Source of the DNA: Acidobacteria bacterium 13_1_20CM_3_53_8
GTDB taxonomy: Bacteria; Acidobacteriota; Blastocatellia; Pyrinomonadales; Pyrinomonadaceae
Length of the DNA: 63,207 bases
Assembly (NCBI GenBank): GCA_001920415.1
Contig: MNJR01000017.1
Span: forward strand, 121,457-184,663
Direction: 5' to 3'
The stretch's first letter is position 1, and each line of letters starts with the position of its first letter. The position numbers were made by a program, and so were the translations under genes. Below are positions 1,899 through 45,865 of this stretch, piece by piece. Below the pieces are notes generated by a model, which had not been told where the DNA came from, made no database searches, and worked only from the letters and a program-made list of their open reading frames with translations.

Positions 1899-4586
1899 AT
1901 GACAGAAGAAGAGAGAAGATTAACGGAAGCCCGCGACCGCGTTCGCAAGTGGAAGATGTGGGGGCCGTATCTTTCGGAGCGCGCGTGGGGCACTGTGCGC
2001 GAAGACTATTCGCCACACGGAACGGCGTGGGATTATTTCACGCACGATCACGCGCGCTCGCGCGCCTATCGCTGGAACGAAGAGGGCTTGGCGGGAATCT
2101 GCGACGAGAGTCAGGCTCTATGCTTTTCGATAGCTCTGTGGAACGGCGCAGACCCTATCCTGAAGGAACGCGCCTTCGGGTTGACGAACAGCCAGGGGAA
2201 TCATGGCGAGGACGTTAAGGAGTATTACTACTATCTTGACAACACTCCTACGCACTCCTACATGAAGTGTCTTTACAAGTATCCGCAGCGCGCATATCCC
2301 TACAGCCAGTTAATAGAAGAGAACGCTAGGCGAGGCCGCGAAGGGTCGGAGTATGAATTGATTGACACGGGCGTCTTCGACGATGACAGCTACTTCGATG
2401 TCAGGGTAGAGTACGCGAAAGCTGCGCCGGAAGACATTCTGATTCTCCTTACAGTAACAAATCATGGACAAGAGGAAGCGCGACTGGATTTAATTCCGAC
2501 GCTCTGGTTTCGCAACACATGGTCGTGGGGCAGAGACGACCGACGACCCATAATTTCCGCATCGTCCCAAGAAATGATAGCAACGGCTGAGACCTCGCAC
2601 GAGGCTGTGATTCACGCAGAGCATCACAGGCTTGGCAATTATTATCTGGTCTGCCAACGGGTCGCGGGTGCTCAGCCCGAACTGCTCTTCACTGAAAACG
2701 AGACAAACGCAGCGCGACTCTACGGCGCTCCGAACTCTTCGCCTTTCGTCAAAGACGGTATCAATGACTACATCGTGCAGGGACAGACAGACAAGGTCAA
2801 TCCGTCGAATGAGGGGACGAAAGCTTGCGCGCTTTACCGCTTGACGATTGGCGCGGGTGAAACTGAAGAAATTCGTCTGCGGCTCTCGACCTTGCAGCCG
2901 CAGTCGGAAGCGCTAGGCGCTCCGTTCGACAATACTTTTGTCGCGCGCAAACGGGAAGCAGATCAGTTTTATTCAACGGTCGCGCCTGAAGGTTTGTCCG
3001 ATGACGCGCGCAACGTGCAGCGGCAGGCGCTGGCTGGTTTATTGTGGAGCAAGCAATATTACAACTACGATGTTGAGATGTGGCTTAATGGAGACCCTGT
3101 GCAGCCCGCTCCGCCGCCTGAAAGATGGGAGGGACGCAACCACGATTGGCGACACCTGAACAACTCCGAAATAGTCTCTATGCCGGACAAGTGGGAGTAC
3201 CCCTGGTACGCTGCATGGGATTTGGCTTTCCACTGCATCTCGCTCTCGCTGGTTGACCCGGACTTCGCCAAAGATCAACTCATACTTCTTCTGCGTGAAT
3301 GGTACATGCACCCGAACGGTCAACTGCCAGCTTACGAATGGGCGTTCGGCGATGTGAACCCGCCCGTTCATGCGTGGGCTGCGCTCAGGGTTTATGGAAT
3401 CGAGAGACGATTGCGCGGCGCGGGCGATACTAAATTTCTTGAGCGCGTCTTTCACAAGCTATTGATTAACTTCACATGGTGGATTAATCGCAAGGATGTT
3501 CAGGGAAGAAATATTTTTCAAGGCGGCTTTCTTGGCCTGGACAACATAGGCGTCTTCGACCGCAGCGCGGGATTGCCCGGCGGCGGATACCTCGATCAAT
3601 CCGACGGCACAAGCTGGATGGCTATGTACTGCCTGAACATGCTCTCCATAGCGTTGGAGCTGGCGCGCCATGATGACACTTACGAAGATGTAGCAACGAA
3701 ATTCCTGGAACACTTCTTCTACATCGCTCACGCTATGAATGATCGTCCAGCCGTGCGCGGCGATGACGGTATTGACCTATGGGATGAAGACGAGGGTTTC
3801 TATTACGATGTGCTTCACCTGCCGGACAAAAGCCACCAGTTTGTGCGCGTGCGCTCACTGGTCGGATTGATCCCGTTGCTTGCAGTCGAAACTATAGATT
3901 CTGAATTGCTGGACATGCTTCCAGATTTTCGTCATCGTCTGGAATGGTTTCTCTCGCACCGTCAAGATCTCTCGAAAGACATGGCTTCGGTGACAAGAGC
4001 GGGAGAGCAGGACAGGCGACGCTTTGCGGTCGTCAACACAGACCGCCTGCGCAGTCTCTTATCTAAGATGCTTGACGAGAATGAATTTCTATCGCCTTAC
4101 GGCATTCGTTCAATCTCTCGCTATCACTTGGAACACCCGTACCGTCTGACGGTAGATGGGACGAGCTATGAGGTCAGCTATCAACCCGCAGAGTCTCGCT
4201 CAGGACTTTTTGGCGGTAACTCAAACTGGCGCGGCCCCATCTGGTTTCCCTTAAATTATCTGCTAATAGAAGCTCTGCAAAAGTTCGACTATTTCTACGG
4301 CGAGAGTTTTACGGTCGAATGCCCCGTCGGGTCAGGTCGCATGCTAACGCTCTGGCAGGTGGCTACTGAACTTTCCCAAAGACTCATAAGCATCTTCACG
4401 CGCGACGAGAGCGGACGCCGCCCGGTCTTCGGCGGCAACGAAAAGTTTCAATCCGACCCAAATTTTAGGGACCTCATACCCTTCCACGAATATTTTCACG
4501 GCGATGACGGCGCAGGTCTGGGCGCTAGCCACCAGACGGGCTGGACTGCCCTTGTAGCAAAGCTAATTCAACAGAGCGGAATTTAG
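1899..4586 (+). CDS. GH63/MGH1-type glycoside hydrolase
   Basis: This 895-aa cytoplasmic protein has no signal peptide and resembles the glucosidase-type (alpha/alpha)6-barrel of family GH63. An N-terminal region of about 400 residues, including [16 protein letters not shown], is followed by the barrel. Conserved stretches include [15 protein letters not shown] near residue 430, [15 protein letters not shown] near residue 775 and [13 protein letters not shown] at the C-terminus. Related enzymes hydrolyse glucosyl- or mannosyl-linked compatible solutes such as glucosylglycerate. The exact substrate cannot be read from sequence. It lies directly after the SDR gene with no obvious ribosome site of its own, which suggests coupling. 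Family call is firm, specificity is open. Confidence 0.85.
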
Positions 4587-4780
4587 AGAAGACTATCGAG
4601 ATAATCTGTGTGAATAACAAAAGATAATGCAACTCTACAAAAGATGTACGCTTCGCCATGTTAGAGCTTTAGCACGGAGGCAGCCAGAGTAGCGTGTTTC
4701 GTTAGCCGCCGATTGATAAGAGTCATTATACCTGCTTGAGTGAGGGCAGCTACTAAGAAGCAATTAGCAATAAGCAAAAG

Positions 4781-4818
4781 AGAGCGCCCGCCAATTATAT
4801 CTAACTCGCGGGCGCTCT
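4781..4818 (-). terminator. Intrinsic terminator downstream of the EF-hand gene
   Basis: An 11-bp perfect stem (AGAGCGCCCGC with GCGGGCGCTCT) encloses a 16-base AT-rich loop. Read on the minus strand it is followed by CTTTTGCTT. It lies about 17 bases after the stop of the gene ending at 4835 and would terminate the minus-strand group 8.1-4.8 kb. Confidence 0.7.
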
Positions 4819-4834
4819 GAATCTGGAGTGAGTT

Positions 4835-5962
4835 TCAGTGCGTGACCAAGAATACATCCCAAGCCCACTTCGCAACGCTTGTGTGCTGCGTGTCCAGTAC
4901 CTTCGCACGATACCGGAATTGATTGCCATATTGGTCAATCTTCTTCGATAGTTTGTACTTGAGGTCTATAGCATTGACGCTCAACTCTGCCAGAGTGTGT
5001 AACTCCTCTGGCTCTGATATGCCATTGTGATTCGCATCTTGCCAGAGTCGTAAACTTGAGTAGATGTCATCATGGCTGTCAATCACTCCATCATTGTTGC
5101 CGCCGTTCGCTGGCTTATCGTACTCGGCCAAGGCTAGGAAACCGTTAGGATTCTCCGTCTCAGTTTGCTCAGTGAAGTTGCCGAACAGTTCTGCTCCGTT
5201 ATCAATCATGCCATTGTCGTTACGGTCTAATGAAAGCCATGCATCATCTGTTCCAGCGACAGTCCAGCCTATATTGTCTTGCGCGCCATCTGCGTCTATG
5301 TCGAAACTAACTCCGCTTCTTGCATCTGTGAGCTGGAAGCCATTGCCTGCTATATCAATTAAGACGGGACTGGAACTGCAATATGATTCTGTAGTGCATC
5401 GGCATACGCGGTCGCACCAATATTGAAAATTCTCACAGTCCCAGGGGTTGCCTGCATCAGGCGAGCAGACGCAACTAAGTGAATCATAATCGTATATCTG
5501 CAAACTATTACACGATGAAGGCGCAGGCGGGCATGCTCTTTCACTTTCGGCGTGAAATCTAGTTGCATTACAGTATGTTTTGTTTTCAATGTGCTTTATT
5601 AGGGCGTAAGGGGATTCTACCAGTGTAGAGTCGGCCCTATCCCAAATTCCATCGTTATCTGGTGTGGTGGTCATGTAAACCTTATTATGCATTTGGAAGC
5701 CCGGACAAACTGTGTAGATCCATTGGTCAGCCACTATCAAAAGGTGCTCAGGTTCACACCGAGCTTCGCAGAAGCACTCGGCTGTTAAATCAACCAGCAT
5801 TCTATCGCAAGGTAGGTACGCACTGACACTCACAATAATAGCTGATGTTTTTAGAATGTAAGGTGAGAGCAATAATACAGTTATCATTATCAGAAAGATT
5901 AAATTTCTAATAATGATCTTGCTTAATAAAATTCTCCTAAGAATTTCTATGTATGAACGCAT
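4835..5962 (-). CDS. Membrane-anchored Cys-rich protein with EF-hand-like C-terminal domain
   Basis: The 375-aa product has an N-terminal membrane segment ([18 protein letters not shown]), then a Cys-rich middle of about 140 residues (at least 15 Cys), and a C-terminal calcium-loop region. [31 protein letters not shown] and [12 protein letters not shown] are EF-hand/dockerin-like loops. This C-terminal arrangement ([15 protein letters not shown]...) occurs at the end of large secreted repeat proteins. Here it is attached to an unfamiliar Cys-rich region. GGAGG lies 9 bases before the ATG. It is probably exported, with the Cys pairs oxidised, which would fit the thioredoxin-like neighbour encoded just upstream. 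Function is unknown. Confidence 0.7.
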
Positions 5963-6030
5963 AGTGATTCGCCTCCGTTATTAAGCAGGTCAGAGATGAT
6001 GCAGGTGAGTTAGCGAGGATCAGACGACTA

Positions 6031-6555
6031 TCACCTATTTACATTAATGGCATCAAGAATCTGTTGTTCAACTCTTTCAGGAAGTTTACCTACCCAAAAA
6101 TCAATAATGATTCCCTTACTGTCGAGTAAAATGATTGTGGGAGTGGCGTCTATACTGTAAGCGTTAAGTTCAACAGACGGAATAGCCTCTAAAGAAAGTT
6201 GATTCTGTTCTAGAAATTGATCTGCTACTTGTTTGGTCTCAGGAGATAAAGCGAGAATGCGGGTAATTTTATTATTGCCCTGAGATTCAGCAACTTGTTT
6301 GTAGAATGGAAGACTTTCCCTGCAATAACCACACTTTGAACTTAAAGCTATTACTAAGGTCTGTCGTGAAGCGCTGTAATCAACCGCAGGTAGTTGCGCA
6401 AACTGCTTGCCTTTTTGTAATCCGCTATTGAACTCTGTTTTTGAACCCTTAGAGAAGAAACTTACAGCGAGAAGACTTAATATCAATATTGAAACCGCCA
6501 GAACTGCTATATTCGTAGCTGTTTCTAAATAAGCTCTTATCTTTGACTCTTGCAT
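6031..6555 (-). CDS. Membrane-anchored TlpA-like thioredoxin-fold protein
   Basis: The 174-aa protein has one N-terminal transmembrane helix (residues 14-34) followed by a thioredoxin fold facing the periplasm. The redox motif is CGYC in SSKCGYCRES near residue 75, and the cis-Pro loop is DATPTIILLD near residue 137. This matches TlpA/ResA-type thiol:disulfide oxidoreductases that reduce or rearrange disulfides in exported proteins. The GGAGGT ribosome site is 6 bases before the ATG. It sits between a Cys-rich exported protein downstream and a membrane-anchored unknown upstream, which may be its clients; that is inference. Confidence 0.8.
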   Translation of the reverse strand: MQESKIRAYLETATNIAVLAVSILILSLLAVSFFSKGSKTEFNSGLQKGKQFAQLPAVDYSASRQTLVIALSSKCGYCRESLPFYKQVAESQGNNKITRILALSPETKQVADQFLEQNQLSLEAIPSVELNAYSIDATPTIILLDSKGIIIDFWVGKLPERVEQQILDAINVNR

Positions 6556-6588
6556 GGATCTACCTCCCTACGAATGTATATAAAAATC

Positions 6589-7548
6589 TTATGATCTTCG
6601 TAAGCTGGCCCATGGTCTGTCTAGTTTCTTAACCAATAGCTGCACAGCCTCGGTATTACCAAGGTGTCTTGCTATATTCAGAAATTCTTCAGCGAATCTC
6701 TTTTTGTTATATTTGTAATAATCAGACGGTGTGGAGTTGAGACCAATATCAACCTCTGGAGCAGCTTCCAATACTTCGAGTGATCTAATTATCTCGTCTG
6801 CGGATTTTCCCTGCTGAATTCCTTTTTGTATATCAACCAATAAATCATGCCTTGCATCAACTTCAGCCTTAACTGCTTCAAAGAATCCCGTTTCGTTTGG
6901 GCCTGCGAATGAGCCATCATCAAAAAATACTCCATCTAGTGAGATAGTTATGCTTGTATATCGAGATAGCTCGGCGTTAAGTAGACTTAAGACTCTAGCT
7001 TCACTTGGATTCTGCTCGATTACGCCTGAATCACTACTCACCGTTAAGTGCCAACTCCTGGATTGTTGTCGGTTCTCAGTCCCCCCTTCTAATGGTTCGG
7101 GTTCCGCTATTTGAGAAAAGAACCAAGTTGAGTGAGGCTTTATTACTTTTGGAGCATTGGCGATAGCACTTGTATGGCTAAACGCTCCTTCATCCATTAA
7201 AATCCAATTGGCTAGGTATGAACTTTCTTTGTAGATAACGGTCCCGTCAGATTTCATACACGCCCACCTTAACTTATAAGAGACGATTGGCCGATTACCG
7301 CTATGCTTGATGAAAATCGAGAAAAGCTTCAGGGCTTCGATGGGTGCATCGGGGTTTTTCTTTTGGAAGGCAGTCATTAATCCATCAAATGATGGATCAG
7401 CGGGTGTAATAATTTTTATACCGTGTTCTGGCAGATCCCTGACATGAAGTTTCACGTTCACGGCTTGTGCTCCTCTACCAAGGAAAAAACTCACAACCAA
7501 GATTACAGGAATAACAAGAGTAACTAATATGAAGATAAGTTTTCGCAT
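6589..7548 (-). CDS. Membrane-anchored hypothetical protein, 319 aa
   Basis: An N-terminal hydrophobic segment (FILVTLVIPVILVVSFFLG) anchors or exports the protein; there is no lipobox Cys. The rest is soluble and mixed alpha/beta, with a strand-rich part at residues 30-210 and a helical C-terminal third. No family is recognised. GGAGGT lies 5 bases before the ATG. It is 33 bases upstream of the TlpA-like gene on the same strand, so the two are probably co-transcribed. The base composition here is more AT-rich than in the flanking genes, hinting at a distinct origin. Confidence 0.65.
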   Translation of the reverse strand: MRKLIFILVTLVIPVILVVSFFLGRGAQAVNVKLHVRDLPEHGIKIITPADPSFDGLMTAFQKKNPDAPIEALKLFSIFIKHSGNRPIVSYKLRWACMKSDGTVIYKESSYLANWILMDEGAFSHTSAIANAPKVIKPHSTWFFSQIAEPEPLEGGTENRQQSRSWHLTVSSDSGVIEQNPSEARVLSLLNAELSRYTSITISLDGVFFDDGSFAGPNETGFFEAVKAEVDARHDLLVDIQKGIQQGKSADEIIRSLEVLEAAPEVDIGLNSTPSDYYKYNKKRFAEEFLNIARHLGNTEAVQLLVKKLDRPWASLRRS

Positions 7549-8289: not shown

Positions 8290-9765
8290 CTAAATCCCTT
8301 CCGTCAGCTTGCGAAAGTGATAGCCCATAGCCGCCAGCCTCACAGCATGCGCAAAGTTTCGGCGATGAGAGATGAGACTGTTTTTTATGTAGCGCCAGAA
8401 CTCCACGCGCTCGCGGTCACGAACGCCTAGCGTGAGGGCTACGCGCGCGAATGCCACTATATCGTTGATAAGACGGTTACGACTCGGCTCAGGCTCCTGA
8501 GTCAAATGCGATAGACAATCTAGCGCGCGGCTGTAATATTCCCCAGACCTGTAGATGGTGCGCAGTATACGCTGATAACCTTCTATGAGACGCGCTGTAT
8601 CCATTTGAGGGATAAAATTCAGAGAGCCGTCTGTGTTGTTTCCAGTGCTCTCTTTCAGAAGTCTTCCTTCGCGCTCCAAACGCCGCCAGAGTTGCGTGTC
8701 AGGAAGCGCTGTGAGCAATCCGACCATAGCGAGCGGAATAGCGCTCTCGCGTATAAAATTTATCTGCCGCTCGAAGATGTCTTCAGGGTCGCTGTCAAAG
8801 CCTACTATGAAACCGGCCATCACTTCGATACCGTAAGATTGAATCTTTCGCACAGATTCCAGCAGGTCGCGCCGCGTGTTCTGTCCCTTCTGCGCTTCCT
8901 TCAAGCTCTCTTCCACAGGCGTCTCTATTCCAAGAAAGACGCGGCGAAAGTTTGCGCGCTGCATCATCTTAAGAAGCGCATCATCTTCGGCCAGGTTCAC
9001 GCTCGCCTCCGTGATGAGAGAGAAAGGATGATTGTGACGCTCCGACCATTCGACAAGTTCAGGCAGCAGGCGTTTGACGTTTCGCTTGTTGCCTATAAAA
9101 TTGTCGTCAACGATGAAGACCATACCGCGCCAACCCAAAGAGCGCAGAGCGTCTAGTTCTGCAATCATCTGTTCGTTAGACTTTGTGCGCGGCACTCGCC
9201 CGTAGATTTCTATTATGTCGCAGAACTCGCACTGGAAAGGGCAGCCGCGCGAATACTGTATGCTCATAGCGCTATAGCGCGAGAGTTCAGCTAAACGAAA
9301 ATCTGGAACGGGTGTGTTGCTGAGCGCCGGTCGCTCGGCGGCCTGATAGATGTGCCGGGCGATTCCAAGCTCTAGGTCGTGCACGAATTCCGGCAGCGTC
9401 GTCTCTGCCTCGCCTATGAAAATGTGGTCGGCATACGGCAAATGTTCCGCGCTGGTAGAGACGTATGGCCCGCCGACTACGACTCGTCGCCCGCGCGCTT
9501 TACACAATCCGACGACTCGCTCCAGCGAATCTTTCTGCACAATCATAGCGCTGGTGAAGACTATGTCCGCCCATTCTATGTCCGATTCCTTGAGCCGTCG
9601 CACGTTCATGTCCACTAGCCGCCGCTCCCAACTTTCAGGCAGCATGGCCGAAACGGTCAGGAGACCAAGCGGCGGGAAGGCAGACCGTTTGCCTTCAAAC
9701 GATAGCGCGTGCCGGAAGCTCCAATAGGTTTCGGGGAATTCCGGGTAAACAAATAGCACCTTCAT
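8290..9765 (-). CDS. B12-binding radical SAM protein with DUF4070-like tail
   Basis: The 491-aa enzyme begins with a cobalamin-binding-like Rossmann domain (residues 1-140; [30 protein letters not shown]). A radical SAM core follows with the 4Fe-4S motif CPFQCEFCD (CxxxCxxC) near residue 180. The C-terminal region resembles DUF4070. Related proteins carry out radical methylations or carbon-skeleton reactions on unactivated carbons; the substrate here is unknown. AAGGAG is 9 bases before the ATG. It lies downstream of a Crp/Fnr regulator on the same strand with a gap of about 180 bases, so control by that regulator is possible. Confidence 0.85.
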
Positions 9766-16863: not shown

Positions 16864-17245
16864 AAATATAGATGTTCCTCTCCTTATAGATCAGGAGTGT
16901 TAAGAGAAGCTGCGAATCAAAGTTGGCTTCGGAGTAACGGCAGTCAGCGAAGGCTCTCAGTTCGAGTGCTCATAATGAGCAACTTCTGCAGGTTGAATTC
17001 GGCCCGCTCTCGAACTATCCAAAACGCTGCCGTCCATATTCATCACGGAGGGCGCATCACCGTTGATACTCAAGAGAAGGAGTAACTGAGAACTATGATG
17101 CACTATATGGGCACATAGTTGCAAGGAAGGAGAGCCTTTCCGCTTTAATAATGGGGGCAACGTTTCAAACAATGTGAGGGCACGCGCCCTCTGTTCTAGC
17201 GGCTCGTTTTAACTTTCCTCTTAATTTCCTCTACAATCTTTCGTC
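16864..17245. other. Divergent intergenic region, 382 bp
   Basis: The region separates the leftward RRM gene from the rightward broken MmeI-like gene. No coding frame is convincing. It may contain a long 5' leader of the RRM gene, as in other cold-responsive RNA-binding protein genes, but no defined element was recognised. A palindromic stretch GAGGGC...GCCCTC lies near 17176-17194. TACAAT occurs 7-8 bases before the ATG at 17246, too close for an ordinary leader. Confidence 0.35.
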
Positions 17246-17809
17246 ATGCCTCATCAAGCAGATTTAAGAGAGGTTCAGGAATTCATAGTGCGCTGGAAAG
17301 AGTCCGGCGCGGCTGAGCGTGCGAACTGTCAATCTTTTCTAAGCGAACTGTGCGATGTGCTTGAAGTGGCGCGTCCACAACCTGCGCAGGCCAAGGATGA
17401 GCAGAACGCTTACGTCTTCGAGCGCGCCGTCACTTTTCACAACGGCGACGGCAGCACCAGCACGGGGCGCATTGACTTATACAAGCGCGGCTGCTTCGTG
17501 CTTGAAGCCAAGCAGGGCAGCGACCGTTCGCAACCGGGCACGTCTTCGCACGGGAATATAGCGGAGTCAACAAAGAGCAGCAGAACACGCAGAGGCACGG
17601 CGGTGCGCGGCACGCTAGGATGGGACGTGGCTATGCGCAGCGCTCGCGGTCAGGCCGAAACAATATGTGCGTGCGCTGCCAAGATGCTCATACCCAAATT
17701 ATTGTTGTTCATCGCGCGTAGAGATGCTATAAGCACGCTATGTCTGTTACGTTCTCAAGAAACAAACAACTCGGCGGTTTATTCAGCGAGCCAGTGCAAG
17801 GTACGTTGA
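17246..17809 (+). pseudogene. 5' fragment of an MmeI-like type IIL restriction/methyltransferase gene
   Basis: The first 150 residues match the N-terminus of MmeI-like enzymes that combine nuclease and methyltransferase. [19 protein letters not shown] is the family opening. The PD-(D/E)xK nuclease core is visible in [19 protein letters not shown], with D and ExK intact, followed by [13 protein letters not shown] and ARGQAE. After ARGQAE the expected YARALP continuation appears only in another frame (YVRALP), and the frame then decays. All methyltransferase and target-recognition motifs are missing. The 3' end of the same family lies at 19.68-20.28 kb. The last 70 bases overlap the following gene. 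Confidence 0.75.
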
Positions 17810-18705
17810 ATAAGCTCGACGCTGCCAAACTTGACCCGCTAGCACCCGCGTGTCTCTATGAACACCCGAACGGCGCGTTATGGGTTGGGGATGCTATCCT
17901 ATGGCTGCGGTCGCTCGAATCTGAATCAGTTGATTTAATCTTTGCAGACCCACCGTATAACATCAAAAAAGCTGAGTGGGATACTTTTGAATCACAACAA
18001 AAGTACGTTGATTGGTCGCTGTCATGGATTGAAGAGGCTGCGCGCATTCTAAAGCCGACAGGCACGCTTTACGTCTGCGGCTTTTCTGAGATACTTGCTG
18101 ATTTGAAGTTACCTGCGCAGCGATTCTTTCGCGGCTGCCGTTGGCTTGTGTGGCACTATAAGAACAAAGCGAATCTGGGGTCTGATTGGGGGCGTTCGCA
18201 CGAAAGCATCTTACATCTCAGAAAGAGCAAAGATTTTACTTTCAATGTTGACGACGTGCGAATACCTTACGGTGAACACACGCTAAAATATCCGCAACAC
18301 CCGCAGGCCGTGACTAGCTTATACGGTAAAGGAAACAACAATAAGAATCAGGTCTGGCAGCCCCACCCAAAAGGGGCCAAGGCGAAAGACGTTCTCGAAA
18401 TTCCGACAACCTGTAACGGGATGCACGAAAAAACAGCCCACCCAACGCAGAAGCCCGAAGAGCTATTAAGGCAATTTGTTCGTGCGTCATCCAACGTCGG
18501 AGATTTAGTCGTTGATCCGTTCTTAGGTTCTGGGACTACCGCTGTCGTTGCCGAACAATTAAAGCGCAAGTGGAAGGGCTGCGATAAGAGTTTGGATTAT
18601 TGCCAGTGGGCCGCGCAACGCATTCAGCTTGTAGAAGATTGGCCTATCGAAAAGTGGATTCAATACGACAGAGCCAATGCGGAACGAAGAAAATCTATCC
18701 GCTGA
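17740..18705 (+). CDS. Site-specific DNA methyltransferase (type II, beta-class)
   Basis: The 321-aa enzyme transfers a methyl group to adenine N6 or cytosine N4. Motif IV is ADPPYNI near residue 69 and motif I is DPFLGSGTT near residue 268. DPPY preceding the SAM motif, with the target-recognition region between, identifies the beta-class. [14 protein letters not shown] near residue 243 is typical. The coding frame starts at ATG 17740, within the end of the broken MmeI-like frame. A restriction endonuclease gene follows with a 29-base overlap, so it should protect host DNA from that enzyme. Confidence 0.9.
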
Positions 18706-19690
18706 CGCTATGCCAACAGTTGAAGTCTTACAGGCGAGCGTACAAGACAAAACAGGCTTCACCGAGCTTGAGCACTACCGGAGACTCGGCGTAGCGTTCC
18801 TAACCTTCCTTGCCAGAGCAAACCTTACACGCATCATCTCGCCTACGCCACCGCACAACTATATCTTCTATCAATACGGCGCAACGCAGGCCAACAAAAT
18901 AACGCGGCCTCTCAATAGCAATCTGTTCATCGAATCGCCTCTCGCCTTCGCAGAAGCCTTTGACAGATTCATCGCGTTCTTAGCTGACCTGAAGAAATTT
19001 CAGGAGAAGACAGCAGCACGCAGAAGCGCCAAAGCCTACCTTGCTTCTAACGAAATTAATAGAGTCATCTACACAGCGCAGCAGTCAATTGGTAGCATTG
19101 GCGATTCATTCAGAGACTCAAATCAAGCGCGGAAGCGCATAGGACAACTCTTCGAGCGTTTGATAAAGTTCATCATCCTTGAAGTAGGCTTGGAGTGTGA
19201 GCCGCGCACGATTAGTGTCCCTGTACCGAATTATCTGGGTTATGCGATGCCCTATGAGCTTGACGTAGTTTTCTCGCGCAATAAGGCCGTGATTGTCTCG
19301 GAGAGGAAGACTATTCACCCGATGGAGATTGTCGGCTCTGTGAAAACGACGAGCAAAGATAGGATTGATAAAATCTTTCTCGACAAGTATCTGCTCGCAA
19401 AGATGCTCGGAAGAGATATTCCGGTCGTCGCAGTCTTCCTGCACGATGTTCAGCGAGCAAAGAAGGGCAACAGTATCTTCGGCATAGCTTCGACTTTCAA
19501 GACGAATCACTTCTTATGCTACTCGCTTGTGCTCAACAAGCTTGACGGTGTTTATTATGTTGACCCCAGGCCAGAGATGGTTTCAACCGAACGACTGCGC
19601 GAGCAAATCAGCGACTTCCAACACTTTTTGACAGCCGACCTATGGGCGCTCTCCGCGCCTGCTCCTACTAAGCTCGACTCAGAGACTTGA
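18677..19690 (+). CDS. Probable type II restriction endonuclease
   Basis: The 337-aa protein follows the methyltransferase and overlaps its 3' end, the usual arrangement of a type II system. A PD-(D/E)xK-like site is suggested by [20 protein letters not shown]: a strand with E/D then ExK about ten residues later. [19 protein letters not shown] follows the site and is a conserved-looking helix. The first ATG is 18677; another at 18710 (MPTVEVLQ), just after the methyltransferase stop, is equally possible. Neither has a clear ribosome site, fitting translational coupling. The recognition sequence is unknown. Confidence 0.75.
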
Positions 19691-20285
19691 AGATTTACTC
19701 AGGCGCGCGCATCGCAAGCGGCAGCAGGCGCAGCATCCCACGCTCACCATCACGGATATGTACAACGTGCTTGAGAAACTGCGCCGCGATGAACCGCTCA
19801 CGATGCGCGAGCGCGCGACGCACGAGCAAGGTCTGGTCTCAGTCCTGAAGCAGATTCACGACGAGCTTGACGGCGCTGTCTTTGACGCCTACGGCTGGCC
19901 TGTCACGCTCACGGATGAAGAGATACTGGAACGTCTAGTCGAATTGAATGCCGAGCGCGTGCGTGAAGAACGCTCTGGCATGGTGCGCTGGCTGCGCCCG
20001 GAATTCCAGAAGCCATCGGAAGGAGTCGCCGCCACGTTCGGCGAAGAGTTTGCTGCCGTGCCCGCCGCCGCAGCCAAACAGGAGAAACAGCCCTGGCCCA
20101 AATCAATCCCCGAACAGGCTCGCGCCGTGCGCCAGGCTCTCTCATCGCAACGCGGCGTCGTCATACCGCAACAACTAGCCCGCGCCTTCACACGCGCCCG
20201 CGTCGAACGCATAGAGGAACTGCTACAAACGCTCGTCTCTCTAGGACAGGCGCGTGAAGTCAGCGAGGGACGCTATACCTCTTAA
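19680..20285 (+). pseudogene. 3' fragment of the MmeI-like gene
   Basis: The frame matches the C-terminal part of MmeI-like proteins: [17 protein letters not shown], then [34 protein letters not shown] and VRWLRPEFQ. It ends in the usual short winged-helix-like tail ([14 protein letters not shown]). The first in-frame ATG is 19758, but similarity starts upstream, at about 19680 inside the end of the endonuclease gene. No MTase motif or target-recognition domain is left. With the fragment at 17246 it brackets the restriction pair precisely. It might still be expressed as a 175-aa remnant. Confidence 0.75.
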
Positions 20286-20291
20286 CCCATG

Positions 20292-20502
20292 TTACACAGA
20301 AAGTGTTTTATACCAGATTGCAAAACAAAATAAGGAAGAGCGGGGGCAAGCCCGCCTTCCTTACCAGTGAGATTAATAATCTAGAGCTTTGGAATTTAAA
20401 GCGCTCAACTCCCATAACCTCATAGGTTGGGAAGGCGGGCTTGCCCCCGCTCTTCCTTCCTTATTTTATTGTGCAATTCGATATTACACAGAAAGTGTTT
20501 TA
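20292..20502. repeat. GC-rich hairpin element flanked by 19-bp direct repeats
   Basis: A long inverted repeat pairs AAGGAAGAGCGGGGGCAAGC with GCTTGCCCCCGCTCTTCCTT. The inverted repeat is enclosed by identical 19-base copies of TTACACAGAAAGTGTTTTA at 20292-20310 and 20484-20502. The direct copies look like a target-site duplication or the ends of a small mobile element. There is no open reading frame. It lies just after the broken MmeI-like gene. Confidence 0.7.
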
Positions 20503-20509
20503 GTAGATT

Positions 20510-20776
20510 CGATAACCCAGTCTGCGTAAGCAGACGATAGATTGTTAGCCCCTGACGCAGCGAAGCGAAGTCTGGGGTATGAGATTGAGAATATAGTTAG
20601 AGTCTGCGTAAGCAGACGGCAGAAGGAAAGGATGACAGATATGTCTGAGCAACATAAACATCTGCCGTCTGCTTACGCAGACTCTGTTTGATGTGATGAA
20701 TGACCACAGACTCCGCCCTTGCGGGCTTCGTCTGTGGCTACACTCTATCGTCTGCTGACGCAGACTGGGTTATGGT
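20510..20776. repeat. Nested multi-hairpin repeat of GTCTGCGTAAGCAGAC units
   Basis: The outer arms are GATAACCCAGTCTGCGTAAG and its near-complement ending CGCAGACTGGGTTATG. The inner arms pair AGAGTCTGCGTAAGCAGACG with CGTCTGCTTACGCAGACTCT. The 16-base palindrome GTCTGCGTAAGCAGAC occurs near 20526 and 20602, with related copies near 20667 and 20748. Further hairpins (CACAGACTCCGCCCTTGCGG) lie between. The layout is a cloverleaf: outer stem with internal stems. Confidence 0.75.
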
Positions 20777-41201: not shown

Positions 41202-42347
41202 TTATTCTACTATCCAAGTGTCGCCGCTGTTGATGAGCTTCTCCAGGTTGCCCATGCCCTGCTTTGCGATTGCGGCGTCAATCTGTCCTACCAGCAATTC
41301 TTCGTATGTGGCGCGTTCGACTGTGCGGAAGATTCCGACAGGCTGCGGAAACTCGCCGCCTTCGTGATACTCCATGCGCGCGAGCATGAATGCGACAGAC
41401 GGATCGTGCAGCGTCATGTCATGTACCAGAATCTCATCTTCAGTAACGCCGTTCTCGCCTATCGTCACGACTTCGGGAAGCGCGCCCTTCATGCGTATGC
41501 CTTTGTTTCTATCTTTCCCGAAAATCATAGGCTTGCCGTGCTCAAGATAAAGCACGTGATCTGTGCGTACGCTTCTGTCTGCGAAGGAATCGAACGCGCC
41601 GTCGTTGAAGATGTTGCAGTTCTGATAGACCTCTATGAACGAGACGCCCTTGTGTTTAGCCGCAGCCTCGACCATAGAAGCAAGATGCTTCACGTCTATG
41701 TCAATGGCGCGCGCGACGAACGTGGCCTCGCTTGCAATCGTAACCGACACAGGATTCAACGGATAATCAATCACGCCCATAGGCGTTGACTTAGTCTTCT
41801 GACCGAAGACGGACGTAGGGCTGTACTGTCCCTTCGTCAAACCGTAAATGCGGTTATTGAAAAGTATGATGTTGAGATCAAGGTTGCGGCGAATCGCGTG
41901 CATGAAGTGGTTGCCGCCGATTGATAGAGCATCGCCGTCGCCCGTTATGACCCACACGCTCAAATCAGGGTTAGCAGTTTTGACGCCCGTAGCAATCGCT
42001 GGCGCGCGACCATGAATCGAATGAAAACCGTAGGTGTTCATGTAATAAGGAAAGCGGCTTGAGCATCCTATGCCGCTCACAAACACCATCTTCTCGCGCG
42101 GTATTCCGAGTTCAGGCATAACCTTCTGCACGCTGTTCAAGATCGCGTAGTCGCCGCAGCCCGGACACCATCGCACCTCCTGATCGGAAGTGAAATCGGC
42201 TTTCGTCAACTTACCCGGCGGCGGCGCAGCCTTACCAGCAGTCACAGAACCCGGCTCGCTCTCCGCCGCAACGCCGCTCCCGACGTTGCCCGCAATGCCA
42301 CCTACATCCATCTTGTTTTCGTTTGTTCCATTACCGTTTGTGCTCAT
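41202..42347 (-). CDS. korB: 2-oxoacid:ferredoxin oxidoreductase, beta subunit
   Basis: The 381-aa subunit binds thiamine diphosphate and transfers electrons from a 2-oxoacid (probably 2-oxoglutarate) to ferredoxin. The TPP motif is GDGDALSIGGNHFMHAIRRN, ending with NN at NIILFNNRIYG near residue 165. Fe-S ligands appear in WCPGCGD near residue 60, GIGCSSR near residue 90 and YQNCNIFND near residue 238. The N-terminal 45 residues are a Gly/Ala-rich linker. The alpha subunit lies 1.2 kb upstream on the same strand, separated by two unrelated genes. The stop codon lies at the edge of a word repeat. Confidence 0.92.
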   Translation of the reverse strand: MSTNGNGTNENKMDVGGIAGNVGSGVAAESEPGSVTAGKAAPPPGKLTKADFTSDQEVRWCPGCGDYAILNSVQKVMPELGIPREKMVFVSGIGCSSRFPYYMNTYGFHSIHGRAPAIATGVKTANPDLSVWVITGDGDALSIGGNHFMHAIRRNLDLNIILFNNRIYGLTKGQYSPTSVFGQKTKSTPMGVIDYPLNPVSVTIASEATFVARAIDIDVKHLASMVEAAAKHKGVSFIEVYQNCNIFNDGAFDSFADRSVRTDHVLYLEHGKPMIFGKDRNKGIRMKGALPEVVTIGENGVTEDEILVHDMTLHDPSVAFMLARMEYHEGGEFPQPVGIFRTVERATYEELLVGQIDAAIAKQGMGNLEKLINSGDTWIVE

Positions 42348-42349
42348 CT

Positions 42350-42988
42350 CTATTCCTCATTCCTATTCAGTCTAGCCTGTTCTATGGCGCGACACAGTTC
42401 TAAAAATTTCTCCCGCACGTAAGGGTTAAGCCGCTCTGCGAACTCTGGCTTGAGATTGCGTAGCTTGATTAGCTCCTGCACGTCCGCCAAATCTTTCAAG
42501 CGGTCGGGCGCGGTCATGCCGGAAGCGAGTTTGAGTTCAATTAACTTTTCCAGCGTGACAATCTGAATGCCGTCAATATCAACCGACGCCGTTGACGGAA
42601 CAGGAAAGCTCACGGGCTTAGGCTTGCCATCGCCCGGATATTCGCCAGCCGCTATCAACTCTATAGGGATGCCATCGCGCGTTGAACGCAGTCTTTTCTT
42701 CGCGCCCGGAAAAGCTGGCGCGTAACCCAGGCCGATAAGCTCACGATGAAATTTTTCCAATCCTTCCGGCGTCAACACAAGATCAATATCCTCGGTGAAT
42801 CGCGGGTAACCATAAGCCATCAGAGCGACCGCGTCTATGATCATGTAATCAATGCCGTGCTGCTCTAAGTCTGCACAGAGACGCGCCAGCGCATTGTTTA
42901 GCTCTCCCTTTCCCATGAAATAGCGCAGCCCTTCCGCGTACATGTCGTGAATAGAACGAGACTTGATGTTTGAAGCAGAAGCAGTCAT
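42350..42988 (-). CDS. Nucleotidyltransferase, AbiEii/DUF6036-like
   Basis: The 212-aa protein has a minimal nucleotidyltransferase fold. ALMAYGYPRFTEDIDLVLT contains the D-x-D metal site (EDIDLV), preceded by the helix VALMAYG. VTLEKLIELKLASGMTAPDR with DRLKDLADVQELIK resembles the C-terminal helical part of AbiEii/AbiGii toxins and related DUF6036 proteins. Such proteins transfer nucleotides to RNA or protein targets, and some act as toxins. It overlaps Uma2 by 4 bases (ATGA) and ends 2 bases before korB's start. Both are inserted between the Kor subunits. Confidence 0.78.
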   Translation of the reverse strand: MTASASNIKSRSIHDMYAEGLRYFMGKGELNNALARLCADLEQHGIDYMIIDAVALMAYGYPRFTEDIDLVLTPEGLEKFHRELIGLGYAPAFPGAKKRLRSTRDGIPIELIAAGEYPGDGKPKPVSFPVPSTASVDIDGIQIVTLEKLIELKLASGMTAPDRLKDLADVQELIKLRNLKPEFAERLNPYVREKFLELCRAIEQARLNRNEE

Positions 42989-43542
42989 ACGGCGAAAATT
43001 TCAGCGATGGCGATTTGGAATCCGGGCACAACATCGCCGCCGTCAAGCGTGTCTTTCTCTGTTAGAGTAACAATGTCTGTAAGCGAACGATAGACAGTGA
43101 CGGTTTTCAGCTTTGGACTAACGACCCAAACCATTCTCGTGCCAGCTTCCAGCCACTCCGCTACTTTCTCTTCAACTTCTCTTACAGGGTCGCCCGGACT
43201 TGTAACTTCAACTGCCAAATCAGGCGCGCCAATCCAGTAACCTTTCGCTTTAGCTGCCCTTTGCGCGCGCTCTTGCCGAACGAAAGCTACATCAGGTGCG
43301 CGCACAGTGTCGGGCTTGCTTTTAAGTTGGAAGCCTGTCTCTGCTGCATAGACCTTGCCGAGTTTGTTGTGTTTGACATGACTATGAAGCGGCCCCGCGA
43401 TGTTCATTGCTACTTCGCCATGCTTATGCCCGGCAGGTGACATACGCCTTAACTCTCCTTCGATGAGTTCATAACGGAAGCCATCATCTGGCATCTCGAA
43501 CAACTCGTCGGCGGTCATCAGTTTTGTTTCAGTCGTACTCAC
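42985..43542 (-). CDS. Uma2-family (DUF820) PD-(D/E)xK endonuclease-like protein
   Basis: The 185-aa protein has the Uma2 layout: [20 protein letters not shown] at the N-terminus, [13 protein letters not shown] for the first Asp of the nuclease site, and [20 protein letters not shown] with the ExK-like strand near residue 125. The C-terminal [20 protein letters not shown], then [11 protein letters not shown], is also typical. Uma2 proteins are common and their function is not established. The ATG overlaps the korA stop (ATGA), and its own stop overlaps the nucleotidyltransferase start. Its position is hence tightly knit into the operon. Confidence 0.85.
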
Positions 43543-45401
43543 AGATACTCCTCGACCTTGCGCACAATCTCTCGAATCTGGAATGGTCGGCCTTTGACTT
43601 TCGAGAAAGCAACTGCATCAACCAGATATTTCGCGCGAATCATAGTGCAAAGTTGGCCCAGGTTCATTTCAGGCACAATCACCGTCTCGAAGCTGCGCAG
43701 GACTTCGCCCAAGTTTTTCGGGAAGGGATTCAGGTGGCGAAGATGCGCGCTAGACACGCTCTTGCCTTCCTGCTGCAATTTTTCAACGGCGGAAGTTATA
43801 GAGCCGTAGGTCGAACCCCAGCCGAGCACTAGAACCTTGCCAGTCTTCTCGCCAAAAATTTCTACGTCTGGAACATCTTGAACGACGCGATCAACCTTCT
43901 CCTGTCGCATCTTGACCATGAAGTGATGATTGTCTGGATCGTAGTTGACGTTGCCGGTCTTGTGCTGCTTCTCTATGCCGCCGACGCGGTGCTCAAGTCC
44001 GGGCGTGCCCGGAATCGCGTAGGGACGAGCGAGCGTCTGCTCGTTGCGCTCGTAGGGCATGAAGCTCTCAGGGTCTGTAGCGAATTTAATTTCAATCTTC
44101 GGCAGATCGCTAATCTGCGGAATAGCCCAGGGTTCTGCGCCGTTGGCAAGGTATCCGTCCGAAAGATAGAAGACAGGCGTCATGTACTTGAACGCCAATC
44201 GAACGGCTTCAATAGCCATGTGGAAGCAGTCGGCTGGAGTTGCGGGCGCAATCACAACCGCAGGACACTCGCCGTTTCTTCCCCAGACGGCCTGAAAGAG
44301 GTCTGCCTGCTCCGTCTTTGTAGGCAGTCCGGTGGAAGGCCCTCCGCGCTGCACGTTGATGATGACGAGCGGCAATTCCGTCATCACAGCAAGACCGATT
44401 GCTTCCTGCTTCAAAGCGACGCCCGGCCCAGACGTTCCGGTCAAACCGATGTGGCCTGTGAACGACGCGCCGATTGCAGCGCAGACAGCAGCGATCTCAT
44501 CTTCGGCCTGAAAAGTTTTGACGCCGAAATTCTTGTGGCGCGACAGTTCGTGAAGGATGTCGGACGCTGGCGTTATAGGATAAGAGCCGTAGAAGAGAGG
44601 ACGCTGCGCGAGTTGTGAAGCAGCTATGAAGCCAAGCGCCGTGGCTTCGTTGCCGGTAATCTTGCGATACTTGCCCGGCGCAATCTTAGCCTTCTTCACA
44701 GTGAAGTGCGTGGTGAAAACTTCCGTCGTGTCTGCGAAGTTGTATCCGGTTTTTAGGGCAATCTCGTTCGCTTTCGCAATCTCAGGTTTACTGGAAAACT
44801 TCTCATGAATCCACCTGGCTGTCTGTTCCATAGGGCGATCATAAAGCCAGTAGAGCACGCCTAGCGCGAAGAAGTTCTTGCAGCGATCCATCTCCTTGCG
44901 CGACATCTCGACCTGACCCTTCAGGGCGTTCAGGTTCAGCGTAGTTATAGGCAGACGATGAACGCGATAGCCTGAGAGCGTTCCATCTTCGAGCGGGTTC
45001 GTATCATAAGCGGCGTACTTCAGATTCTCCTTCGTGAAAGAATCTTCATTGATGATGAGCGTGCCGCCCTCTTCCAAATCGCCCAGGTTGACTTTCAACG
45101 CCGCAGGATTCATGGCGACCAGAACGTTCGGCTGATCGCCGGGCGTGCGTATGTCGCGGTTGCTAAAGTTCAACTGGAAACCGGAAACGCCGGGAAGACT
45201 TCCGGCGGGCGCGCGAATCTCCGCCGGAAAATCCGGCAGCGTGGAGATGTCGTTGCCTACGACGGCTGAAGTGTTTGTGAATTGTGTGCCCGTGAGCTGC
45301 ATGCCGTCGCCGGAATCTCCGGCAAACCGTATGGTCACGGTGTCCAACTCTTCCAGATGTTTTTCGATTTGGTCTACTGGCGGTTCTATGACTGTGCTCA
45401 T
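43539..45401 (-). CDS. korA: 2-oxoacid:ferredoxin oxidoreductase, alpha (fused gamma-alpha) subunit
   Basis: The 620-aa subunit has a gamma-type domain at residues 20-190 ([29 protein letters not shown]) followed by the alpha pyrimidine-binding part ([36 protein letters not shown]). ITPASDILH and GTSGPG are family-specific. The KorAB complex makes or uses reduced ferredoxin from 2-oxoglutarate or a similar acid. I chose ATG 45401 (MSTVIEPP); a longer frame to 45467 has no ribosome site. It is the first gene of the operon; the operon continues through Uma2, nucleotidyltransferase and korB. Confidence 0.92.
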
Positions 45402-45865
45402 TGCTCTCTCTAGTCCTCTTCCAAGCCGTGCACCCTTGAAGCGTGTGAACACGGGCGCGCACCGCAAAGACGGCGCGCGAGAAATTCTCCACGTTCGGGA
45501 CGCACTAAAATCTTAGCACAGAAGCAAGGCTCATGCCTTGTCCGAAAGAGCTATGTTTCAGCCTGTCTCACGAAAAATTCGGGGAATATGCCCCAAACGC
45601 TTGCGCAGAATTTCGCGGCGAATTGAAGAGGTGAGACAGAGAGGCTTCTCTTGAAGAATCATAAAGAGCGCGCCACTCTTTTCTGTAATCTCCTCATTTC
45701 TGTTGACTACCCTGGCCGCACGGTTATAATGGTGTCATTCACCTCAGGTCCTCAGATTCGGCGAGAGCCTGAATTTAGCCGCAATGCTACTTCCTCGTAG
45801 GTAGTCAACTTCTTCCGATCTATCTGTAGCCTATCGCGGCACCCTCAACTCTTCAGGAGGAAGAC
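45402..45865. other. Divergent region between korA and the small exported protein
   Basis: No coding frame is supported in these 464 bases. The region contains the promoter listed at 45703. Several short hairpins exist (AGGCTCATGCCTT near 45529 and CTGTCTCAC/GTGAGACAG around 45560-45640). A long leader of about 130 bases is predicted upstream of the gene at 45866, including CGTAGGTAGTCAACT, a partial inverse of AGTTGACTAC at the promoter. Confidence 0.45.
45703..45730 (+). promoter_or_regulatory. Sigma70-type promoter upstream of 45866
   Basis: TTGACT at 45703-45708 and TATAAT at 45725-45730 are 16 bases apart, a near-consensus pair. Transcription would start near 45737, giving a leader of about 129 bases for the exported protein at 45866. 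Confidence 0.7.

Follow-up and report, generated by a model that had tools for sequence, protein, structure and literature searches.

Four coding stretches on the + strand lie within positions 17246-20285 of the 63,207-nucleotide stretch of DNA that was analyzed (hereafter the window): an N-terminal open reading frame (N ORF), a DNA methyltransferase gene (MTase), a restriction endonuclease gene (REase) and a C-terminal frame (Table 1). Together they make up a type II restriction-modification (R-M) pair seated between both ends of one MmeI-like gene. As an earlier note on this DNA had pointed out, reading frames overlap at both joints, by 70 bp on the left (N ORF and MTase) and by 59 bp on the right (REase and C frame); the MTase and REase genes themselves overlap by 29 bp. 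The GC content of the pair is 49%, and that of the remnants on either side of it is 59-61%. The source assembly is a draft of 155 contigs (95.9% complete, 3.9% contamination), and the joints are known from this draft assembly alone.

Table 1. Features of the locus, in window coordinates, with the evidence for each.
Feature	Coordinates	Strand	Evidence
5' remnant, MmeI-like (type IIL/IIG) gene	17246..17686	+	MmeI_N; PDLC03627 positions 3-131; tblastn of intact relatives; residue positions
Left joint, 53 bp, 43% GC	17687..17739	.	Alignment fades; GC; TGCTATAAG at chance frequency over the window
Type II DNA methyltransferase	17740..18705	+	PF01555 3.5e-51; PDLC03371 4.1e-65; M.MboIIA 2.6e-37
Type II restriction endonuclease, CCGG-family fold (predicted)	18677..19690	+	PDLC03436 1.8e-56; conserved residues; model; Kpn2I Z 25.7
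Right joint zone, 49 bp	19658..19706	.	From the end of REase homology to the start of clear MmeI-like homology
3' remnant, C-terminal region of MmeI-like gene	19707..20285	+	PDLC03627 positions 958-1135; 77% identity to L041; frame limits

The N ORF (17246-17809, 187 aa) holds the first ~145 residues of an MmeI-like (type IIG/IIL) enzyme. Pfam MmeI_N matches it in part (E=3.4e-14), as does the start (positions 3-131) of PDLC03627, a PADLOC model for type IIG enzymes that is 1136 positions long (E=1.4e-39); over the final ~49 residues the likeness to MmeI is not clear. The PD-(D/E)xK nuclease domain is present and is frameshifted near its end. Its predicted nuclease residues are D77, E87 and K89 (codons at 17474, 17504 and 17510), the counterparts of D70, E80 and K82 in MmeI, where the spacing from D to E is the same (PMC4833311). 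The earlier note had read an MmeI-like opening with an intact D/ExK site at this end of the locus, and both are there. The decay that it had placed just before the insertion comes down to one frameshift: as far as 17659 the MmeI-like sequence keeps to a single frame, and past the shift, near 17660, a few residues (QYVRALP) continue the MmeI-like sequence in the new frame. A gene of the same subfamily elsewhere (L045, from G072, 4014-7543) is likewise broken into two frames close to where its nuclease domain ends; there a frameshift is the only lesion, and no insertion was seen.

At the other end, the C fragment (19707-20285) comprises the last 192 residues of an MmeI-like enzyme and corresponds to positions 958-1135 of PDLC03627 (E=6.5e-56). 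Pfam MmeI_C stays below its cut-off on this fragment (E 0.064, 13.9 of 27 bits), and it is likewise unlisted by Pfam for three intact relatives of the gene (L041, L042 and L043). The open frame as such extends from 19632 to 20285 (217 codons), with its first ATG at 19758. The fragment is the C-terminal end of the family, as had been proposed, with a start other than the proposed 19680, clear homology beginning at 19707.

The three intact relatives come from other genera of the same family (L041 from G048, L042 from G017 and L043 from G007). Compared by tblastn with positions 17001-20500, each gives two collinear pieces on the same strand, with no match at E<=0.01 between the two. The identity of L041 (1,154 aa) in this comparison is 67% in the N piece and 77% in the C piece, and in a search of the window's own genome it is 72% over residues 7-137 and 77% over residues 963-1154. 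The fragments belong to a single family, being the two ends of one model (PDLC03627) and of L041, and the check proposed in the earlier note, alignment of both ends to full-length relatives, finds one contiguous block missing between them, at about residues 145-962 of L041 (~820 residues, 2.45 kb). Pfam divides L041 into MmeI_N (8-233), spacer (241-313), methyltransferase (404-697) and TRD (744-945). What has been lost is the remainder of the N-domain and the whole of the spacer, methyltransferase and TRD, and the right joint lies just past the end of the TRD in L041 coordinates. The helical spacer, methyltransferase and TRD are present in all three relatives and absent between the remnants, where the type II pair fills the gap, in agreement with the earlier description of missing methyltransferase and target-recognition parts.

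When L041 was searched against the draft genome from which the window comes, the MmeI-like centre was not found elsewhere; just the two known pieces were returned, and relocation of the centre within this draft genome was rejected. Because no recognition or methylation of DNA is possible without the missing domains, the MmeI-like enzyme is dead, and the older gene is a remnant, not a working type IIL/IIG member. The domain order of the intact relatives and the D..ExK of the remnant agree with what is described for MmeI and type IIL enzymes (PMC4833311); the window differs from these in having a remnant only, without spacer, methyltransferase or TRD.

The first gene of the pair carries a DPPY motif ahead of DPFLGSGTT, an order that we take to be that of the beta class, and its product is predicted to be an N6-adenine or N4-cytosine type II DNA methyltransferase. 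The closest PDB sequences are M.MboIIA (the best, 2.6e-37) and M.RsrI. No clear ribosome-binding site could be seen by eye upstream of its start. A truncated N-terminus was considered for this protein and dropped, since its homologues in L005 and L008 share the start position. In L005 and L008, inverted repeats of the form TTACAT...ATGTAA were noticed by eye before the MTase start, and these may be an operator regulating the pair.

The endonuclease has no Pfam or NCBIfam match and is recognized by the PADLOC model PDLC03436. Its sequence finds nothing convincing in the PDB (best E 0.097). The AlphaFold2 model (mean pLDDT 86.5) resembles Kpn2I (Foldseek 4.1e-10; 272 residues aligned with Z 25.7 and rmsd 2.7), with further structural matches to PspGI (Z 13.3) and, much lower, to other nucleases, NucC among them (Z 10.8). 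Both Kpn2I and PspGI belong to the CCGG family, whose PD...K...D/E site is permuted (PMC6344858). With these type IIP endonucleases the modeled protein appears to share a common fold and the invariant order D...K...D; it differs from Kpn2I and PspGI in sequence, with 16-18% identity in the structural alignments. The residues E160, D196, K223 and D236 are identical in 19/19 aligned REases, their D...K...D order fits the permuted site, and, as assigned from the sequence, they are the probable active site. Also identical in 19/19 is the run S226-K227-D228-R229; set against the R-(D/E)R motif of CCGG recognition, its D-R fits and the first R does not. This 19-row count leaves out L013, L020-L023 and L037-L040; in an earlier count of 28 rows, some of them broken or badly cut (such as L013, L020, L021 and L040) and some distant, just 3 residues reached at least 93%. 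Based on the fold match to Kpn2I and PspGI and on the residues identical in 19/19, we predict that the REase is probably active and that it may recognize a CCGG- or CCNGG-type core. An endonuclease family without a Pfam or NCBIfam match is now tied, by way of a model, to the CCGG-family fold.

At the left joint, similarity to the MmeI-like relatives fades after about 17686 into 53 bp of 43% GC, which may be either a leader of the cassette or degenerate MmeI DNA. A promoter-like TGCTATAAG is found there at 17725-17733, shortly before the ATG of the MTase; it was rejected as a promoter of the MTase's own, the motif occurring at chance over the window (29 found, against a mean of 24.9 in shuffles). 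At the right joint, most REase homologues stop at about DLW.LS, near residue 327, and the protein of the window is ~10 residues longer. Tails are also found in a few homologues (L012, L021, L024 and L038). Because the tail extends past most homologues and is disordered in the model (residues 330-337 below a pLDDT of 50), we read it as probably a scar of fusion, left by read-through into joint or remnant DNA. No direct repeat of at least 11 bases links the joints within 17400-19900, and no target duplication or flanking repeat of 11 bases or more is present at them.

The age of the event was approached through the changes accumulated in the remnants, polarized with pairs of intact relatives; without constraint, two thirds of the changes are expected at codon positions 1+2. 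On the branch of the window, these positions hold 45/117 changes with L041/L042 (p=7e-10), 38/85 with L041/L043 (p=4e-5) and 68/128 with L042/L043 (p=0.002). The branches of intact genes give 37/65, 77/134, 35/81 and 49/111, and an intact flanking gene has 38/98 on the window branch. Nothing in the changes at codon positions 1+2 points to a relaxation of constraint, so the remnants would not have drifted for long; such counts, which vary by comparison, argue against a long drift and give no closer date.

The pair recurs well beyond this locus. Homologous MTase and REase genes follow each other in this order on one strand in 27/27 other loci, of which 23 were taken from genome contigs and 4 are relatives; the titles of the records name Chloroflexi, Bacteroidetes, Armatimonadetes and others. 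An MmeI-like gene lies beside the pair in none of the 27 (E<=1e-5) in the flanks examined, which measured at most 8 kb at 23 loci and about 1.5 kb at L037-L040, a longer stretch around L037 (L077) being checked with both fragments. The neighbors of the pair vary among loci, with some sharing a context (L015/L016 and L021/L024), and some of the homologous REases are broken, for instance in L040. Searches with the REase gave two plasmid records (at 34.6%), found none in phages, and matched 3/396 genomes of the phylum at E<=1e-40, the window included. In the Chloroflexus loci L015 and L016, the M-R pair stands close behind a gene read as peptide chain release factor 1.

The C fragment matches 11/162 genomes of the class and the N fragment 12/119 genomes of the family (the window included in both), six of the latter weakly (E>1e-7). 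Among the six strong matches of the C fragment besides the window (E<=1e-50), four fall in frames of more than 1,000 codons and two (G079 and G001) in genes that run off the end of a contig; they were considered as further replaced genes, and 0/6 look so. No second case of the same chimera was seen in the tallies for the C fragment in the class, the N fragment in the family and the REase in the phylum. As only 12/119 genomes of the family match the N fragment, the MmeI-like gene was an accessory one.

The left flank, with a DEAD-box helicase and an RRM protein, has 79% DNA identity up to position 17128 to G012, the nearest relative by flanking genes; in the G012 stretch beyond this point neither fragment matches, and there is no MmeI-like gene. 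The right flank, from an AMP-ligase-like gene onward, matches another contig of G012, which ends there. In G012 the helicase/RRM pair is found beside other genes, and the desaturase lies elsewhere in another orientation. A homologue of the radical-SAM gene at 8290-9765 adjoins the AMP-ligase-like gene in G028, in the same order, and from this adjacency the interval at 9.8-20.7 kb looks variable within the family. A conserved slot was rejected as a description of the site: around the same flanking genes in G010, G012, G024, G028 and G029 neither fragment matched, the right flank of G012 being at a contig end. At 20333-20770, in the space that separates the C remnant from the AMP-ligase-like gene, two GGGGGCAAGCCCGCC-type sequences inverted relative to each other can be seen by eye, together with several hairpin-like repeats of the form GTCTGC..GCAGAC.

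We consider it highly probable that a mobile type II pair replaced the central part of an accessory MmeI-like gene by illegitimate joining, and that little drift followed. The site would first have carried a restriction-methylation gene of the single-chain, MmeI-like kind (type IIL); a mobile pair, MTase followed by CCGG-family endonuclease, would then have taken the place of its central ~2.45 kb, and ~440 bp at the 5' end and ~580 bp at the 3' end would have stayed as pseudogene ends. The joining was most likely illegitimate, because no repeat of at least 11 bases links the joints, and the REase frame would have run into joint or remnant DNA, gaining its ~10 residues. The event would be a recent one. 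In function the pair would be an ordinary R-M system, with an MTase that marks host sites and a REase that cuts unmarked invading DNA.

The same anatomy could have arisen in two steps, which we regard as possible and rather unlikely: the gene would have lost its centre first, or the pair would have inserted cleanly, and later deletions would have trimmed the dead gene to the edges of the pair. Each joint does lie very close to an end of the pair, which is what selection for the pair alone would produce, and the 5' remnant is already frameshifted; however, given the lack of an excess at codon positions 1+2 and the single frameshift, there was hardly time for many successive events. One-step replacement is not proven over insertion followed by trimming, because no relative with an uninterrupted MmeI-like gene at the same locus was found.

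The earlier note had gone further, suggesting that the pair exploits the locus of the older gene and that one defense system had taken over the genomic slot of another. Of the note's reading, what stands is one former MmeI-like gene that has lost its centre as a contiguous block, with an unrelated type II pair in the gap. That the pair draws on the promoter and position of the older gene, at a site that is a standing defense slot, seems improbable to us. The overlap of the N ORF with the MTase start, the lack of a clear ribosome-binding site before it (by eye) and a promoter-like site ahead of the N ORF at 17209-17237 would all be in line with such dependence. Yet promoter-like sites occur at chance (4 found, against a mean of 3.2 in shuffles), 27 other loci have the pair and, over the flanks examined, lack an MmeI-like gene, and no standing slot is evident, the left flank of G012 having no MmeI-like gene.

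It is very improbable that the fragments are functional small proteins, a stand-alone nuclease domain and a C-terminal protein, that aid the pair. The intact D77, E87 and K89, the C frame open for 217 codons and the third-position bias of the changes could be read in this way, but a shift breaks the N frame close to where the nuclease domain ends, no other locus arranged like this one was seen in the tallies above, and the bias may be a legacy of the time before the event. Least credible of all is a chimera of unrelated contigs, which the draft state of the assembly might suggest and against which stand the two ends of one gene family, collinear and on the same strand, set around a third element as chance would not set them, and outer flanks that form one region, their radical-SAM and AMP-ligase-like genes being neighbors in the same order in G028.

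Insertion of R-M systems into R-M genes, and replacement of such genes, is already in print, and the replacement that we propose here is a well-preserved new example, not a new phenomenon. An R-M complex inside another R-M system is described in Campylobacter upsaliensis (CupORF237P; PMC2630997), and a similar insertion in Helicobacter pylori (Nobusato et al., 2000, as cited in PMC2630997); as at our locus, one R-M gene complex lies inside another. The CupORF237P system, as presented in that paper, is a pair of R and M homologues, whereas the outer gene here is a single-chain MmeI-like gene with its centre gone, not just split. In Campylobacter cuniculorum, a PabI-family R-M system replaced a type II R gene, and in H. 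pylori hrgC replaced PabI, leaving ends of 78 bp and 88 bp (PMC4615327). These cases likewise involve the replacement of a restriction gene, and the end remnants around hrgC reveal the earlier gene; they concern other families, while the loss here amounts to ~2.45 kb and deprives a single chain of its domains for recognition and methylation. PMC3874152 reviews mobile R-M units (citing Furuta et al., 2010), with target duplication reported for some. The pair described here would likewise be a self-moving R-M pair, and differs in showing no target duplication of at least 11 bases.

The locus leaves the understanding of R-M mobility unchanged. Its value is that of a clean fossil in which one defense system appears to have been destroyed by the arrival of another, the victim being a single-chain MmeI-like enzyme whose lost parts are visible. 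A speculative extension, drawn from one case and to which we give little credence, is that displacement of this kind is directional: an addictive two-gene pair, whose loss kills the cell, would replace a non-addictive single-chain IIL enzyme, whose loss cannot be lethal because one protein does both the cutting and the methylating. If this were true, type II pairs would find easy landing sites in IIL genes, and replacements would recur one-way.

Elsewhere in the window, on the - strand at 42350-43542, an AbiEii-like nucleotidyltransferase and a Uma2 protein are encoded between two larger genes (41202-42347 and 43539-45467) that, read from their translations, look like two subunits of a 2-oxoacid:ferredoxin oxidoreductase.
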